A DNA stretch of 64,000 nt. It comes from Fidelibacterota bacterium. Lineage in GTDB: Bacteria; Fidelibacterota; UBA8477. How positions within the stretch are numbered: position 1 is the stretch's first letter; each line of letters starts with the position of its first letter. Location of the stretch: the NCBI GenBank assembly GCA_021734045.1, contig JAIPJR010000001.1, positions 8,843 through 72,842 of the forward strand. The letters are read 5' to 3'. The notes beneath the pieces are model-generated. The model was not told the DNA's origin. It made no database searches and was given only the letters and a program-made list of their open reading frames with translations. Positions 35,066-45,113 of this stretch are shown here, piece by piece. Both the position numbers and the translations under genes were made by a program.

Positions 35066-35101
35066 CTGCAAACCTCATTCGCGAAGGCTATAGCGTGAAT
35101 G

Positions 35102-35251
35102 ACGTGTCGTGCAGGTGTCCTGACTCCCGGATCATTCTCCTCCAGCGCCTTCCCAGCTAGGTAAAAAGCCAGTGGCGGATTGCCAGATTCGTTCCCGGTT
35201 ACAGTAGCGCGTCTGTGCCCGATTCTCACGGGCTTCCCGTACGCGACACAT
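35102..35251 (-). promoter_or_regulatory. Cobalamin riboswitch
   Basis: Reading the minus strand, the conserved blocks appear in order: P1 strand ATGTGTCG, GGGAAGCCCGTGAGAATC, the CACAGACGCGCTACTGTAA core, GCCACTGG, TGGGAAGGCGC, then GAGTCAGGACACCTGC and the closing P1 strand CGACACGT (8 bp with the first, one G-U pair). This is the B12-box architecture. It ends 37 bases before the receptor ATG and should lower its expression when adenosylcobalamin is plentiful. The remaining upstream gap to 35487 holds no gene that I can support. Confidence 0.93.
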
Positions 35252-35487
35252 CTCAAAATTTGAAAAATCGCTCATTAAGCTAAATGGCTCCTGGTTGATT
35301 ACAATAAATTTCTTACACGATGATGCATTTCTTTGTTCGGTGGATAGTAAGCAACAATAAATACAGTTAGATACGCGATAAATCACCCGGAGCATACCTG
35401 GGGATGATACGGTCTTGCAGGCGGGATATCCGCCGTTGGAGTCTAATCCGTCAGCGGTTAAATTGGCCACGCCTTGAAGGAGGGATT

Positions 35488-38717: not shown

Positions 38718-39473
38718 ATGTCTGAGTCAGCCAATTCCGGAGACGCCAAAGCGGGAATTCGATTGAATCGTTTCCTTGCCATGGCCGGTATCGGGTCGCG
38801 ACGGGTTTGTGATGAGTTGATTCAAAAGGGCATGGTTCAAGTTAATGGCGTGATACAGGTTGAGCCGGCAACGCGTGTCGTGGAAGGGCGGGATCAGGTT
38901 GAATTTCAAGGCCGTCCGGTGAATTTGGTTCATGAAACTCATTATTACATCTTTAATAAGCCACGGGGCGTAATTACCACCACAAGTGATCCCTTTGGCC
39001 GGCCCATTGTGGTGGATTTTTTGCCCGGTGATGCACGCATTTACCCGGTGGGACGATTGGATTTCGACACCACCGGCGCTTTATTGCTCACCAATGATGG
39101 GGACGTGGCATATCGGCTCACCCATCCCAAATTTCAGATACCAAAAGTTTACCAGGTTTTGGTTCGCGGAAACCCGCCGGAAGCGACCCTGCGCCGGGTG
39201 GAGGCTGGCATAGAAATTGAAGCCGGGTTTGTTGCCAGAGGTGAAATTAACGGATTTTGGTACCGGGGTGGCAACACCGAGGTCCGGTTGACGCTACGGG
39301 AAGGAAAAAAGCGCGAAGTGAAACGCATCTTTCGTACTCTGGGACATCCGGTTGTGCGCTTACACAGAGAATCCTTTGCCGCGTTGACGGTGACCGGATT
39401 AAAACCCGGTGAATGGCGTGAATTGACGCCAGAGGAAGTACGCGAACTCAAGGAGCTGGTTCATGGACATTAA
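38718..39473 (+). CDS. 23S rRNA pseudouridine synthase (RluB/RsuA family)
   Basis: 251 residues. An N-terminal S4 RNA-binding domain (IRLNRFLAMAGIGSRRVCDELI) is followed by the catalytic domain with the Asp motif VGRLDFDTTGALLLTNDG and the late KREVKRIFRTLGHPVVRLHR. The neighbourhood scpA-scpB is the usual one for RluB. It modifies ribosomal RNA in the cytoplasm. Overlaps the next gene by 11 bases. Confidence 0.9.
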   Translation: MSESANSGDAKAGIRLNRFLAMAGIGSRRVCDELIQKGMVQVNGVIQVEPATRVVEGRDQVEFQGRPVNLVHETHYYIFNKPRGVITTTSDPFGRPIVVDFLPGDARIYPVGRLDFDTTGALLLTNDGDVAYRLTHPKFQIPKVYQVLVRGNPPEATLRRVEAGIEIEAGFVARGEINGFWYRGGNTEVRLTLREGKKREVKRIFRTLGHPVVRLHRESFAALTVTGLKPGEWRELTPEEVRELKELVHGH

Positions 39474-41172
39474 GGGTAAACGGGTGATGATTTTTGGTGG
39501 CTGGGGTTTGGTTGGCCGGGCGGTGGCAAAGCAGGTTTTGCGTGAACAACCAACGGAATTAATTCTTACTTCACTCCGGGAAAATGAAGCCCGGGAGATT
39601 CAGGAAATCCTGGCAAATCATCCGGTAAACCGGGGGACGCGCATCTCCGTTGTGCATGGTGATTTATTCGTGCGTAAAGAATTGTCACTGAAATCAAAGG
39701 GTGAAATCTACGAAACCGACGATTTGCTCCAGACCATGATCCAGGACCTTTACGATGATTTGAGTCCGGATATTATCGAAAATTCCAACCTCTACCAGGT
39801 TTTGAATCAGTACAAACCTCAGATACTCATAGATTGTATTAATACCGCTACGGCATTTGCCTATCAAAATGTTTTTCAGGTCGTGGCGGAAGTACGAGCG
39901 GATCTGGCGAAAGCACGGTCGGGAGAGACCGTTAGCGATGATTTTACAAAGAAGGTAGAGCGACTGGTTTCTACCCTTTACATCCCTCAACTCATCCGGC
40001 ACGTCCAGATACTGATTGAAGCCATGCGTCAGGCGGAAACAGAATTTTACCTGAAGGTTGGAACTTCGGGAACCGGCGGTATGGGCTTTAATATTCCCTA
40101 CACCCACTCGGAGGAAAAGCCTTCTAAAATGCTCATGAGCAAATCGTCTTTGGCTGGTGCCCATACCATGCTGCTCTGGTTATTGGGGCGGACGCCGCAT
40201 ACACCGATTGTAAAGGAAATCAAACCTACCGCCGCCATCGCATGGAAAAAAATCGGGTATGGCAAAGTTGTGAAGCGGGGGCAATTCATTCCAATGTACG
40301 ATTGTCTGCCTGATTTGGAAACCACGCTGGGGCATGAATTGGTTCGGAATCCTGCACCTACCTGGCAGCGATTGGAGGAACGTTTTATCGAGTCGGTTTA
40401 CATTGACGCCGGTGAAAACGGGTATTTCTCCGCTGGTGAGTTTTCAGTCCTTACCGCCGAAGGTCAGATGGAATTTGTCACACCTGAAGAGATTGCCGAT
40501 AAGGTATTGATTGAGATTAAAGGCGGTAATACGGGCAATGACATTATCGGCTCGTTGGATTCGTCGGTACTGGAACCCTCTTATCGTGCGGGATTAATCC
40601 GGAAAAATGCCATCGAACGCATGGGTGATTTGCAGCAGGAAACCGGTTCAGACAGCGTGGCATTTGAACTCCTGGGACCACCCAGGTTGACCAAACTACT
40701 GTATGAAATTTACATGCTGAAGCGGTTGCACGGGGCTGTGAATGCGGTACTGGATACACCGGCGTCTGATCTGGCAGCTGCAATGGAAGAGTTAATTCTT
40801 TCCGACGATGAATTGCGTGCCACTATTATCTCGGTTGGAACGCCGATTTTGCTGAGTGATGGAAAAACCTACCTGCGGGGACCCTCCATTTCGGTGCCGG
40901 TTTTCGAAGGGCAGCCGGTTTTGCCGGTAACACCGGAGAATATCGAAAAATGGACCTCCCAGGGCTGGCTGGATTTACGCGTGTCCAACATGGAATATTG
41001 GCAAAAACGCCTCCATTGCCTGTTGGATGATCAGGAATTGGAGCCGGAGGACGATTATTCGTCCTACTACTATCGTAACCGACGATTTTTGGATGCGAAA
41101 GAGCGCATGGACATTGGTGCAATTGTGAATTGGATCATGGAGTATGAGGATAAAGGTTATCGCATTAAATAG
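39463..41172 (+). CDS. Conserved Rossmann-fold dehydrogenase/epimerase-like protein, function unknown
   Basis: 569 residues. The N-terminus has a nucleotide-binding glycine motif (VMIFGGWGLVGRAVAKQVL) as in NAD-dependent epimerases, but the rest does not match a short-chain dehydrogenase. Around residues 195-270 is a very conserved-looking block: KVGTSGTGGMGFNIPYTHS, then LMSKSSLAGAHTMLLWLLGRTP, KEIKPTAAIAWKKIGYG. No classical YxxxK is seen. The C-terminal third is acidic and tyrosine-rich. It overlaps rluB-like by 11 bases, so it is part of this operon. I cannot name a substrate. Confidence 0.6.
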   Translation: MDIKGKRVMIFGGWGLVGRAVAKQVLREQPTELILTSLRENEAREIQEILANHPVNRGTRISVVHGDLFVRKELSLKSKGEIYETDDLLQTMIQDLYDDLSPDIIENSNLYQVLNQYKPQILIDCINTATAFAYQNVFQVVAEVRADLAKARSGETVSDDFTKKVERLVSTLYIPQLIRHVQILIEAMRQAETEFYLKVGTSGTGGMGFNIPYTHSEEKPSKMLMSKSSLAGAHTMLLWLLGRTPHTPIVKEIKPTAAIAWKKIGYGKVVKRGQFIPMYDCLPDLETTLGHELVRNPAPTWQRLEERFIESVYIDAGENGYFSAGEFSVLTAEGQMEFVTPEEIADKVLIEIKGGNTGNDIIGSLDSSVLEPSYRAGLIRKNAIERMGDLQQETGSDSVAFELLGPPRLTKLLYEIYMLKRLHGAVNAVLDTPASDLAAAMEELILSDDELRATIISVGTPILLSDGKTYLRGPSISVPVFEGQPVLPVTPENIEKWTSQGWLDLRVSNMEYWQKRLHCLLDDQELEPEDDYSSYYYRNRRFLDAKERMDIGAIVNWIMEYEDKGYRIK

Positions 41173-41201
41173 CGGATAATCCATAGAATTTCTCTGATGT
41201 A

Positions 41202-41369
41202 ATGGCATTATACGGTCGCAATTATTTTGGTCTCTGGCTCATCATGGGGATGATGATTGGTTTTTTTGTGGGCACCGGTTTTCAGTCGCCGGAAGTGGGG
41301 GTGGTTGCCGGGGGCGGCTTGGGACTACTCTACGCATGGCTGAAGAGCCGAAAGCATTCGGGTGAATAA
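41202..41369 (+). CDS. Small membrane protein, 55 residues
   Basis: Short open frame starting MALYGRNYFGLWLIMGMMIGFFVGTG, a hydrophobic helix, then a glycine-rich second hydrophobic segment (GVVAGGGLGLLYAWL) and a basic end (KSRKHSGE). Glycine-zipper-like spacing. It lies 29 bases after the 569-residue protein. No clear Shine-Dalgarno, so it is less certain than its neighbour. Confidence 0.45.
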   Translation: MALYGRNYFGLWLIMGMMIGFFVGTGFQSPEVGVVAGGGLGLLYAWLKSRKHSGE

Positions 41370-41442
41370 ATCCCTACCAAGCCCATCCCGGCGTATTACT
41401 TTCCCCTGAACATCATCAACATACAGGGTGTGGAGGAGATAA

Positions 41443-41661
41443 ATGGCTCGATTATTAACAACGAGAAATGCCTTGTGGATTACATTGGCAACGGGTGTAG
41501 GTGCTGTACTGCAATTCTATGCGCTCCTGCGCTATGTGGACCGTCTCCCCGGTGATACGGTTGGCATCATTATTTATGCAATCACCTGTCTTTGTTTTCT
41601 CATTCTGGCGGGTGTTTGTTTTCGGATTTGGCGACGGTTGGCGACTGAAAACAACGCGTGA
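41443..41661 (+). CDS. Small membrane protein, 72 residues
   Basis: Starts at an ATG directly behind GGAGGAGATAA. Two hydrophobic helices (ALWITLATGVGAVLQFYALL and TVGIIIYAITCLCFLILAGVCF) and a basic tail (RIWRRLATENNA). Not recognised. The strong ribosome-binding site supports it as a real gene. Confidence 0.6.
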   Translation: MARLLTTRNALWITLATGVGAVLQFYALLRYVDRLPGDTVGIIIYAITCLCFLILAGVCFRIWRRLATENNA

Positions 41662-41705
41662 TAAATCCTGCATGCCCCGGCTTCAGAATATTGCTTTCGA
41701 AAAAG

Positions 41706-41734
41706 TTGGATTCACACAGACCGGCGACTATATT
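41706..41734 (+). promoter_or_regulatory. Sigma-70 promoter of the Cmk-S1 gene
   Basis: TTGGAT (41706-41711), 17-base spacer, TATATT (41729-41734). The sequence around and after the -10 (GACTATATTTGGCCGCTTTTA) closely matches the promoter at 49334. Predicted start near 41741, 58 bases before the ATG. Confidence 0.7.
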
Positions 41735-41798
41735 TGGCCGCTTTTATGAGAGCAGTTAGAGAATATAAGCGCAATAGAATTAATGGTTTTTTGAAAGC

Positions 41799-44700
41799 AT
41801 GATTATCGCCATTGATGGTCCGGCGGCATCCGGAAAATCCAGTACTGCAGCGCGTGTTGCGGCGAAATTGGGGTTCCGGCATATTGATACCGGTGCCATG
41901 TACCGGGCTGTGACCTTGTACATGTTGGATCATGGTGTAGATATTTCGGACACAGAATCCGTTCTGAACGTACTGCCGGATGTGGATGTGTCGCTTGAAT
42001 TTAAAGGTGATAATCAACATGTGATTCTAGCGGGTGTGGATGTGAGTGATCGCATCCGAACGCCGGCTGTGAATGAGCATGTGAGCCAGGTTAGCGCAAT
42101 ACCGGCCGTACGCCAGCGTCTCGTAGAACTCCAGCGCCAAGCTGCCAATGACTACGATGTGGTATTGGAAGGACGCGACATCGGAACAGTCGTATTTCCC
42201 AATGCCGAATTGAAAATTTTTATGATTGCCGATGTCCATGTCCGGGCACAACGGCGCCAGCAGGAGTTGGCGAGCCTGGGCATTCAGCAAGACCTGGCTG
42301 AATTGGAAAAAGATCTGATAGCGCGTGACAAAATCGATTCATCGCGAGAATTGTCACCATTGAAACCCGCTACTGATGCAGTCGAGCTGGATACATCCAA
42401 GCTTACCATCGACCAGCAGGTAGCATTCATCGTTAACCAAGCCAAGCAACTGATTGCAGAGGAGGAAAGACCCTTCATGGCAGAAGAAGAAAAAAAGGAT
42501 GCACCGCAGACTGAAGACCAGTCCCAGGAGACATCCGAAACCACCTCAGACGCCGTCGAGATGACGCCCGCCGAGGAAACCCAGGACAAAAAAGAAGAGA
42601 CCATCGCGTCTGAACCTGAACCCGAAACCAAAACCGAGACCGAAGCTGAATCCAAAACTGAAGCCGAAGCCGAAGCCGAAGCCGAAGCCGAAGCCGCAGA
42701 AACTGACGCTAACACCGCATCTGCTAAAGATGAGGGTGACGAAGTCAGTTCTGAGGTAGCACAAAAAACTGATGCTGAAATGACGCCTGAACAAGCCCCG
42801 GATACAGAAGCACCGGTCGAGGAAAGTGCGGAATCATCTGACAAAGATGAACCGGCCAAAAGCACTCGGAAAACCGTCAAGGTGAAAGCCAAAACTTCTG
42901 GTGAGCCACCGGTTCAACCGGTTGTTGATGCGGAAGAAGCTGAAAAAGCTTCGAAAAAGATTGCCGGACTGGATAAACGGTCCGCCATGAATGACATCTT
43001 CAACCAGATCAAGACAGTGAAGCCGGATCAGCTTGCTGAAACCATTGCTGAAGAATCCGAGGAAGTGAAAGACCTTTCCTTCCTGCTGGATCGTACTATC
43101 GCAGACATTACGCCGCGTACCCTGGTGGAAGGGCGTGTCATTTCTGTGGGCGATCGTGAAGTACTGGTGGACATCGGTTTCAAATCCGAAGGGCTGGTTT
43201 CCCGGGATGAATTCAAGGATGACGAATTGCCCAAGGTGGGTGATAAAATCGAATTATTCCTGGATACACTGGAAGATGATCAGGGTCAGACAATTCTGTC
43301 CAAACGCAAAGCAGATTTCATGCGTGTCTGGACCGCGATAAAAGATGTTTCCGACAATGACGACCTCATCAATGGCACCATTACTCGCCGGATTAAAGGT
43401 GGTATGGTGGTGAATGTGATGGGTATTGATGCCTTCCTGCCCGGATCGCAACTGGATGTGCGCCCCATCCATGATTTTGACGCATATATCGGAAAGTCCT
43501 ACGACTTCAAGATCGTCAAACTCAATGAAACCCGGAAGAATATCGTACTCTCACGGAAAGACCTGCTGGAGGAAAAACTCCAGAAACAGCGGGCTGAACT
43601 GTTGAAGAATATCGAGATTGGCCAGGTACTGGAAGGCCGGGTAAAAAATATCACCGATTTTGGCGTATTCGTCGACTTGGGTGGTGTTGATGGTCTGTTG
43701 CATATCACCGATTTGTCCTGGGGACGGGTTAACCATCCCTCTGAAGTTGTGGATATGGACGATGAAATTACCGTAAAGGTGATTGATTACGATGAAGAAA
43801 AACAGCGTGTCTCGCTGGGATTCAAACAGTTACAGCCACACCCGTGGGAACATGTGGAACAGAAATATCCTGTGGGTTCTGCTGTTAAAGGCAAAGTGGT
43901 CAGCATCACCAATTACGGTATTTTTGTGGAATTGGAAGAGGGTGTTGAAGGTCTGGTACATATCTCAGAAATTTCCTGGACCCAACACATCAAGCATCCA
44001 TCGGAAATTTATTCGGTTGGTGACGAAATTGAGACCGTCGTGCTTTCAATCGCACCGGATGATCGTAAAATCAGCCTGGGCGTGAAGCAACTGAAACCGG
44101 ATCCCTGGACCCTGATTGAGGATACCTACATCGTGGGTACACTCCACACAGGTACGGTTAAGAACCTGACCCAGTTCGGCGCATTTGTTGAATTGGAAGA
44201 GGGTATCGAAGGCCTGATCCACATCTCAGATCTCTCATGGACGCGCAAAGTCCGTCATCCGAAAGAGGTACTGAAACGCGGAGACGAAGTGGAAGTCCGC
44301 ATTCTCGACATTGCTCAGGACCAGCGGAAAATCTCGCTTGGGCTCAAGCAGGCCGAGGAGGATCCATGGCCGCAGATTGAACAGGAATTTGCCGTGAACA
44401 GCACCCGTAAGGGTAAAGTCATCAAATTGCTGGACAAAGGCATCATCCTGGAGCTGGAAGGGACCGATGTTGAAGGTCTGATTCCCCTGGCTGCGTTCAA
44501 CAAGAAAGACCGGAAGACGATTCTGGATAAGTTCGAGGTAGATCAGGAAGTAGAAGTCAAGGTGATCGAGATTGATCCCAATGACAAGAAAATCCTGGTC
44601 AGCCATGAAGCCGCCATCAAAGATAAAGAACGGGCGGTTGTGGACGAATATCTGCGCGGTCAGAAGCAGGACGGCAATAAGCTTGACATTCCCGATGAAA

Positions 44701-45113
44701 TCGTGGCCAAAATCAAGGAAGCTGCCGAGGAAGAAACCGAGAAAAAGGTTGCTGCTGCTGCCAAGCGGAAAGCCGCTAAAGCAAAAGAAGAAGAAAAAGC
44801 ACAGAAAAAAGCGGATGCGGAAGATGCTGCGGAATCAGAAGCTGAAGAGAAGCCTGCATCCAAAACCAAAACCAAATCCAAATCCAAATCGAAATCGAAA
44901 GCAAAATCCGAAGATACGGAAGATGCTGCCGATGCCGATGCCGATGCCGATGAGGATGCTATTGAAACGGAAGCCACTGGAGAGAAAGAGCAATCTGACT
45001 CTGATGTGGAAAACGATGAAAAACCAGCGGACGAATCCGAATCTCCTGATGACGATTCAACAAAACCCGCTGATGATGCGAACGATGAGGAAGAATCCAA
45101 AGACGATAAGTAA
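41799..45113 (+). CDS. Fused cytidylate kinase / 30S ribosomal protein S1
   Basis: One open frame of 1104 residues. Residues 1-226 are a complete CMP kinase (P-loop DGPAASGKSST, DTGAMYRAVTL, LEGRDIGTVVFPNAELK, KIFMIADVHVRAQRRQ). Residues 227-425 are an acidic, Ala/Glu-rich low-complexity linker. Six S1 RNA-binding domains follow (about 441-493, 523-588, 607-678, 692-764, 778-851, 865-934), as in ordinary RpsA. The end (about 960-1104) is a Lys/Ala then Asp/Glu/Ser-rich tail. cmk and rpsA are neighbours in many genomes; here no stop separates them. An ATG at 42477 with AGGAGG upstream could still give S1 alone. A sigma-70 promoter precedes and a strong terminator follows. Confidence 0.9.
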   Translation: MIIAIDGPAASGKSSTAARVAAKLGFRHIDTGAMYRAVTLYMLDHGVDISDTESVLNVLPDVDVSLEFKGDNQHVILAGVDVSDRIRTPAVNEHVSQVSAIPAVRQRLVELQRQAANDYDVVLEGRDIGTVVFPNAELKIFMIADVHVRAQRRQQELASLGIQQDLAELEKDLIARDKIDSSRELSPLKPATDAVELDTSKLTIDQQVAFIVNQAKQLIAEEERPFMAEEEKKDAPQTEDQSQETSETTSDAVEMTPAEETQDKKEETIASEPEPETKTETEAESKTEAEAEAEAEAEAAETDANTASAKDEGDEVSSEVAQKTDAEMTPEQAPDTEAPVEESAESSDKDEPAKSTRKTVKVKAKTSGEPPVQPVVDAEEAEKASKKIAGLDKRSAMNDIFNQIKTVKPDQLAETIAEESEEVKDLSFLLDRTIADITPRTLVEGRVISVGDREVLVDIGFKSEGLVSRDEFKDDELPKVGDKIELFLDTLEDDQGQTILSKRKADFMRVWTAIKDVSDNDDLINGTITRRIKGGMVVNVMGIDAFLPGSQLDVRPIHDFDAYIGKSYDFKIVKLNETRKNIVLSRKDLLEEKLQKQRAELLKNIEIGQVLEGRVKNITDFGVFVDLGGVDGLLHITDLSWGRVNHPSEVVDMDDEITVKVIDYDEEKQRVSLGFKQLQPHPWEHVEQKYPVGSAVKGKVVSITNYGIFVELEEGVEGLVHISEISWTQHIKHPSEIYSVGDEIETVVLSIAPDDRKISLGVKQLKPDPWTLIEDTYIVGTLHTGTVKNLTQFGAFVELEEGIEGLIHISDLSWTRKVRHPKEVLKRGDEVEVRILDIAQDQRKISLGLKQAEEDPWPQIEQEFAVNSTRKGKVIKLLDKGIILELEGTDVEGLIPLAAFNKKDRKTILDKFEVDQEVEVKVIEIDPNDKKILVSHEAAIKDKERAVVDEYLRGQKQDGNKLDIPDEIVAKIKEAAEEETEKKVAAAAKRKAAKAKEEEKAQKKADAEDAAESEAEEKPASKTKTKSKSKSKSKAKSEDTEDAADADADADEDAIETEATGEKEQSDSDVENDEKPADESESPDDDSTKPADDANDEEESKDDK
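42460..42479 (+). promoter_or_regulatory. Candidate internal ribosome-binding site and ATG for stand-alone S1
   Basis: AGGAGG at 42460-42465 lies 11 bases before an in-frame ATG at 42477, exactly at the junction between the Cmk domain and the S1 part. The spacing is somewhat long. Confidence 0.45.
42660..42695 (+). repeat. Six tandem copies of GAAGCC
   Basis: A perfect hexanucleotide repeat inside the Cmk-S1 linker encodes Glu-Ala repeats. Being a multiple of three, changes in copy number would keep the frame. Confidence 0.95.

Follow-up and report, generated by a model that had tools for sequence, protein, structure and literature searches.

A cmk-rpsA fusion with a probable second translation start at the gene junction in Marinimicrobia

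Introduction

Two in-phase translation starts are present in infB of Escherichia coli, and an unrelated enzyme precedes the S1 domains in the IspH-S1 fusion (NF000907/PRK00087). The closest described system is TP0279 of Treponema pallidum, which is annotated as a Cmk/S1 fusion (PMC3373638, PMC3570794) and for which no internal start is reported in the open-access literature that we searched. Here we describe a fused cmk-rpsA gene in the window, i.e., the whole 64,000-nucleotide stretch of DNA that was analysed, from a genome whose nearest named relatives are Candidatus Neomarinimicrobiota metagenome-assembled genomes (MAGs).

Similar to TP0279, Cmk is followed by S1 within one open frame (41799-45113), but TP0279 belongs to another phylum; given this and the many split Marinimicrobia relatives, the Treponema fusion is presumably independent. 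The enzyme differs from that of the IspH-S1 type, and the NF000907 model matches the S1 part only of the window protein (521 bits, below the cut-off of 624). Adjacent cmk and rpsA genes have the same order and neighbours as the fused gene and differ by the stop between the frames. As in infB-type genes, long and short products from one frame are predicted, and the conserved internal Shine-Dalgarno (SD) sequence and start codon expected of dual initiation are found in cmk-rpsA. Unlike in the infB type, the predicted short form would be an entire former gene product, to which the long form would add an unrelated enzyme.

Results

Structure of the fused gene

The features of the locus are collected in Table 1. 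In the Pfam comparison, Cytidylate_kin matched residues 3-217 (2e-71) and S1 matched six stretches (4e-86). Among the NCBIfam models, TIGR00017 (cmk) passed its cut-off of 135.55 with 244 bits on residues 1-214, NF004953 (30S S1) scored 750 bits (cut-off 720) on residues 408-971, and the S1 model TIGR00717 passed with 592 bits against 577. The reading in the initial annotation of a single 1104-residue frame with a CMP kinase, six S1 domains, and a charged tail is thus confirmed. The Cmk motifs GPAASGKS, DTGAMYR, and EGRDIGTVVFP are present, align with the P-loop and CMP site of solved Cmk chains, and are mostly invariant across 13 fused relatives; the Cmk and S1 parts both look intact in these predictions. 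The calculated masses are 122.2 kDa for the fusion and 97.4 kDa for the product from the internal ATG. In the AlphaFold model, the Cmk and S1 domains are folded and the acidic extension is disordered, and the pTM of 0.31 leaves the model silent on contacts between Cmk and S1.

Table 1. Positions of the features of the cmk-rpsA locus in the window.
Feature	Position	Strand	Basis and remarks
Fused cmk-rpsA gene	41799..45113	+	Single ORF, ATG start, 1104 codons plus stop; same frame in relatives
(d)CMP kinase (Cmk) domain	41799..42449	+	Residues 1-217; PF02224, TIGR00017, solved Cmk chains
Suppressed synonymous variation around the junction	42396..42608 (approximate)	+	About codons 200-270; clades f1, g3, g7
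AGGAGG, putative SD of the internal S1 start	42460..42465	+	Anti-SD energy
Internal ATG, codon 227, putative original rpsA start	42477..42479	+	Aligned with S1 starts of split relatives
Acidic N-terminal extension of S1	42477..43022	+	Residues 227-408; 52 D/E of 182; disordered in model
Six S1 domains	43086..44618	+	About residues 430-940; Pfam/NCBIfam matches
Charged C-terminal tail	44709..45110	+	Residues 971-1104; hexamer repeats in the DNA

The genome contains one Cmk match and one full S1, both of which are the fused gene, and two further matches to the S1 model that are weak and below the cut-off; since this MAG is only ~92% complete, a second Cmk or S1 copy may have been missed. Plasmid records gave no match spanning most of the query.

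A pseudouridine synthase gene lies upstream of the fused gene, and ybbR-like and tsaD genes lie downstream. A 569-aa protein encoded at 39463-41172 has a borderline Pfam match to Polysacc_synt_2 in its first 68 residues (20.1 vs 20.2 bits). The about 630 bases between this gene and cmk (41173-41798) hold no recognised gene or RNA, and an 82-aa ORF within them (41501-41749) has no Pfam match. On the minus strand, a Cobalamin riboswitch is found at 35093-35261 (Rfam RF00174, 96 bits).

Fused and split loci across the phylum

We collected cmk-rpsA loci across the phylum and called their state by tblastn and the reading frame. Fused genes occupy 32 of the 125 Marinimicrobia loci, and the remaining 93 are adjacent but split. 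The fused loci fall in seven families, f1, f2, f4, f6 (in part), f16, f21, and f26, and include both other genomes of the window's genus, which are separately named public contigs with 75-91% identity over Cmk, and 29 further genomes outside it. On the S1-core tree (FastTree), we count a minimum of eight switches of state, a number that is approximate, with the direction of single changes uncertain, because tree support is moderate in places. Judging from these loci, adjacent split cmk and rpsA is the ancestral order in the phylum.

Two side observations concern other groups. The Ignavibacteria loci, including L070, L086, and L090, have ~1000 bases between cmk and rpsA, which is space for one gene, and the Cmk frame of L139, from a Latescibacterota genome, runs to 531 codons and suggests another fusion partner.

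Loss of the stop codon at the junction

The split loci of genus g17 read GGA GGA AAA TGA ATG at the junction, and the fused member of the same genus, G077, reads GGA GGA AAA TTA ATG, as does the fused genus g22; within g17, therefore, one codon (TGA vs TTA) distinguishes split from fused genomes. The 13 fused genomes of genus g3 carry GGA GGA (GGT in one) AAC TTA ATG, and G005, basal in this genus, is split with TGA directly before ATG. The junction is AAC TGG ATG in genus g2; TTA, AGA, AAA, TTG, or TTC precedes the S1 start in other fused lineages; and it is TTC ATG in the window's own genus, where we infer that TTC occupies the former stop position. Since most of these pre-start codons are one substitution away from a stop, the stop adjoined the S1 start and was lost through a point change, as seen most clearly between the g17 split loci and G077. 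Cmk and S1 became one protein through the loss of this intervening stop, which bears out the proposal of the initial annotation that a lost stop codon joined the genes.

Acidic extension and tail of S1

The split S1 of relatives starts with a comparable acidic N-terminal extension, up to 213 residues long. It measures 188 residues in the split close relative G005, and across the phylum the split S1 extensions have a D/E fraction of ~0.3 in most families and are commonly 60-150 residues long. An acidic linker created by the fusion is ruled out, as unfused S1 has its own acidic extension; the 200-residue linker of the initial annotation is instead the N-terminal extension of S1 itself (residues 227-408). 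On this comparison, Cmk is joined onto the original S1 N terminus.

The charged S1 tail is specified by hexamer DNA repeats at 44858-44952 (units ATCCAA and TGCCGA), and part of the acidic extension by similar ones at 42612-42696; both repeat stretches differ in length among relatives.

In E. coli, the N-terminal segment of S1, together with S2, anchors the protein to the ribosome (PMC4288201). A helix at residues 420-436 in the model of the window protein may be the counterpart of this anchoring segment, and both products could then bind ribosomes because the helix lies inside both.

Shine-Dalgarno sequence of the internal start

The initial annotation had pointed out AGGAGG and an ATG at the junction, and both are found there, separated by an 11-nt spacer, which exceeds the ideal length. 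The S1 start codon is retained in 32/32 fused loci (ATG in 31, GTG in one), and in each of the 32 fused ORFs no other in-frame ATG has as good an anti-SD match as the junction start. In the window, the anti-SD energy is -11.1 kcal/mol at the internal start vs -2.7 kcal/mol at the Cmk start, and the internal SD is the stronger of the two in 29 of 30 genomes. The medians are -9.3 kcal/mol for fused junction starts, -3.05 for Cmk starts, and -5.7 for split S1 starts; the contrast between fused junction and split S1 SDs has a p of about 1e-4 at the genus level and about 0.01 at the family level. The SDs of close split relatives (g17, G005) are equally strong, so the SD strength may predate the fusion instead of compensating for it.

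SD motifs within coding regions are generally depleted, most of all in ribosomal protein genes (PMC5100845). The codon-shuffle null, which is weak when taken alone, did not reject a chance origin of the junction SD in most genomes, so we put weight on the variation between genomes. The rpsA start of gammaproteobacteria has no canonical SD and is under repression by S1, which is abolished when the SD is made canonical (PMC10931766); the canonical SD at the window's S1 start therefore predicts that S1 would not repress it there.

Synonymous constraint and RNA features at the junction

Synonymous differences among relatives were corrected for codon usage and compared with expectation within 25 codons of the internal start. 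The variation was 0.19 of expectation in g3 (13 genomes), 0.24 in f1 (3 genomes), and 0.22 in g7 (5 genomes), the genomes inside one clade not being independent, compared with 0.71-0.74 over the whole ORF in f1, g3, and g7. The lowest synonymous windows of each ORF are located at or near the junction in these three clades. Most split genera also dip at the true S1 start, but more shallowly, to 0.36-0.62 where divergence is adequate, and split f9 g36 has an S1 start without an exceptional dip. The expectation-corrected test supersedes an earlier short-window test, which was replaced because, for two clades out of three, its lowest windows lay beside the start and not on it. An internal promoter, or some other RNA element, could account for part of the dip.

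At the junction, RNA structure has z values of roughly -2 to -3 in f1 and in many genomes of g3 and close to 0 elsewhere; no common fold was found across the clades compared, and Rfam gave no match at the junction. Low mRNA structure at the internal start is seen in f2, f4, f21, and f26 and is absent in f1 and g7. Upstream of the internal SD, a 9-bp hairpin (TGTCTCC AAG GTGGAGACA region) occurs in the g3 consensus fold, in L034 and other g3 loci, and is not common to f1 or g7.

Discussion

The locus is probably a cmk-rpsA fusion with two translation starts from which both products are made. In the ancestral operon, cmk and rpsA would have been neighbours, and the cmk stop abutting the rpsA start would have changed to a sense codon, joining the genes in frame. 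The ribosome-binding site and start codon of rpsA would have stayed inside the joined frame and would still be used. The weak Cmk site would then give the 122-kDa Cmk-S1 as the cell's only CMP kinase, and strong internal initiation would give a 97-kDa free bS1, probably in excess, because cells need far more S1 than Cmk. The sequences themselves show the intact joined frame, the single copies, the recurrence of fusion, and the conserved internal SD and start with their synonymous constraint; from these we infer the actual internal initiation, the amounts of both proteins, and the activity of Cmk within the fusion. The initial annotation had left open whether the internal start is a relic or functional. 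The start at the junction is probably functional, and its conservation suggests that the cell makes both the fusion and plain S1; a relic is less likely, since a dead relic should lose such features as the SD strength and the suppressed synonymous variation. The same two features lend indirect backing to the earlier suggestion of two products in different amounts. The usual depletion of SD motifs inside coding regions also speaks for a working internal start.

If the fusion were obligate, the 1104-residue protein would be the sole product, every S1 would bear Cmk, and the internal SD and ATG would be relics. The open frame maintained in 32 genomes fits such a protein, as do the fusion products elsewhere that carry a single annotation, e.g., in Treponema, but the SD and start retained in every fused locus, best among the in-frame ATGs, and the synonymous suppression around them speak against it, and the weak Cmk start would need to provide all of the S1; we regard an obligate fusion as unlikely. 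Alternatively, most free S1 might come from a separate transcript of an internal promoter near the end of cmk, with the fusion as a by-product of readthrough transcription. The synonymous constraint extends upstream for some 25 codons or more from the start, beyond the needs of an SD, which agrees with such a promoter; however, a simple scan for the sigma-70 type found no such promoter on the plus strand at 41200-43000. A separate transcript as the main source of S1 is improbable, and an internal promoter is in any case compatible with use of the internal start, so that it would modify the reading of two translation starts and not replace it.

The tether itself might be the function, with S1 placing the CMP kinase at the ribosome and linking CTP supply to translation, as the initial annotation had proposed. 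Both parts look intact, and the presumed ribosome-binding segment of S1 is internal to the fusion, where binding is not obviously blocked. Nevertheless, the repeated gains and losses of the trait and its absence from most of the phylum suggest a weak or no benefit of the tether; nothing in our analysis supports the coupling, and we consider it improbable. A stop codon deleted by an assembly or sequencing error might be suspected in a MAG of 119 contigs, but the same fused frame in both genus-mates and the 29 genomes outside the genus, which are independent MAGs, rules out an artefact and leaves this explanation with almost no probability. The initial annotation would have been overturned by such an error or by relatives that always carry separate genes; the error did not materialise, and split genes are common yet not universal.

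The Cmk/S1 architecture is not new, as TP0279 was already annotated in this way. The open-access literature yielded no paper on S1 fusions in Marinimicrobia or on a start inside a Cmk-S1 gene, and a one-codon toggle that recurs while the internal start is conserved appears to be undescribed. On balance, we lean towards the broader interpretation that, throughout the phylum, single substitutions switch the cmk-rpsA boundary back and forth between stop and sense, with the embedded start under selection, both products made, and the S1-tethered kinase an optional extra.

A bacterial gene fusion can thus arise with both products kept, when the stop is lost and the start of the second gene survives, and because both states occur among close relatives, this intermediate stage can be tested directly. 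Caution is also needed in annotation, where a 'bifunctional' call can conceal a second, probably more abundant protein, which here would be a ribosomal one.
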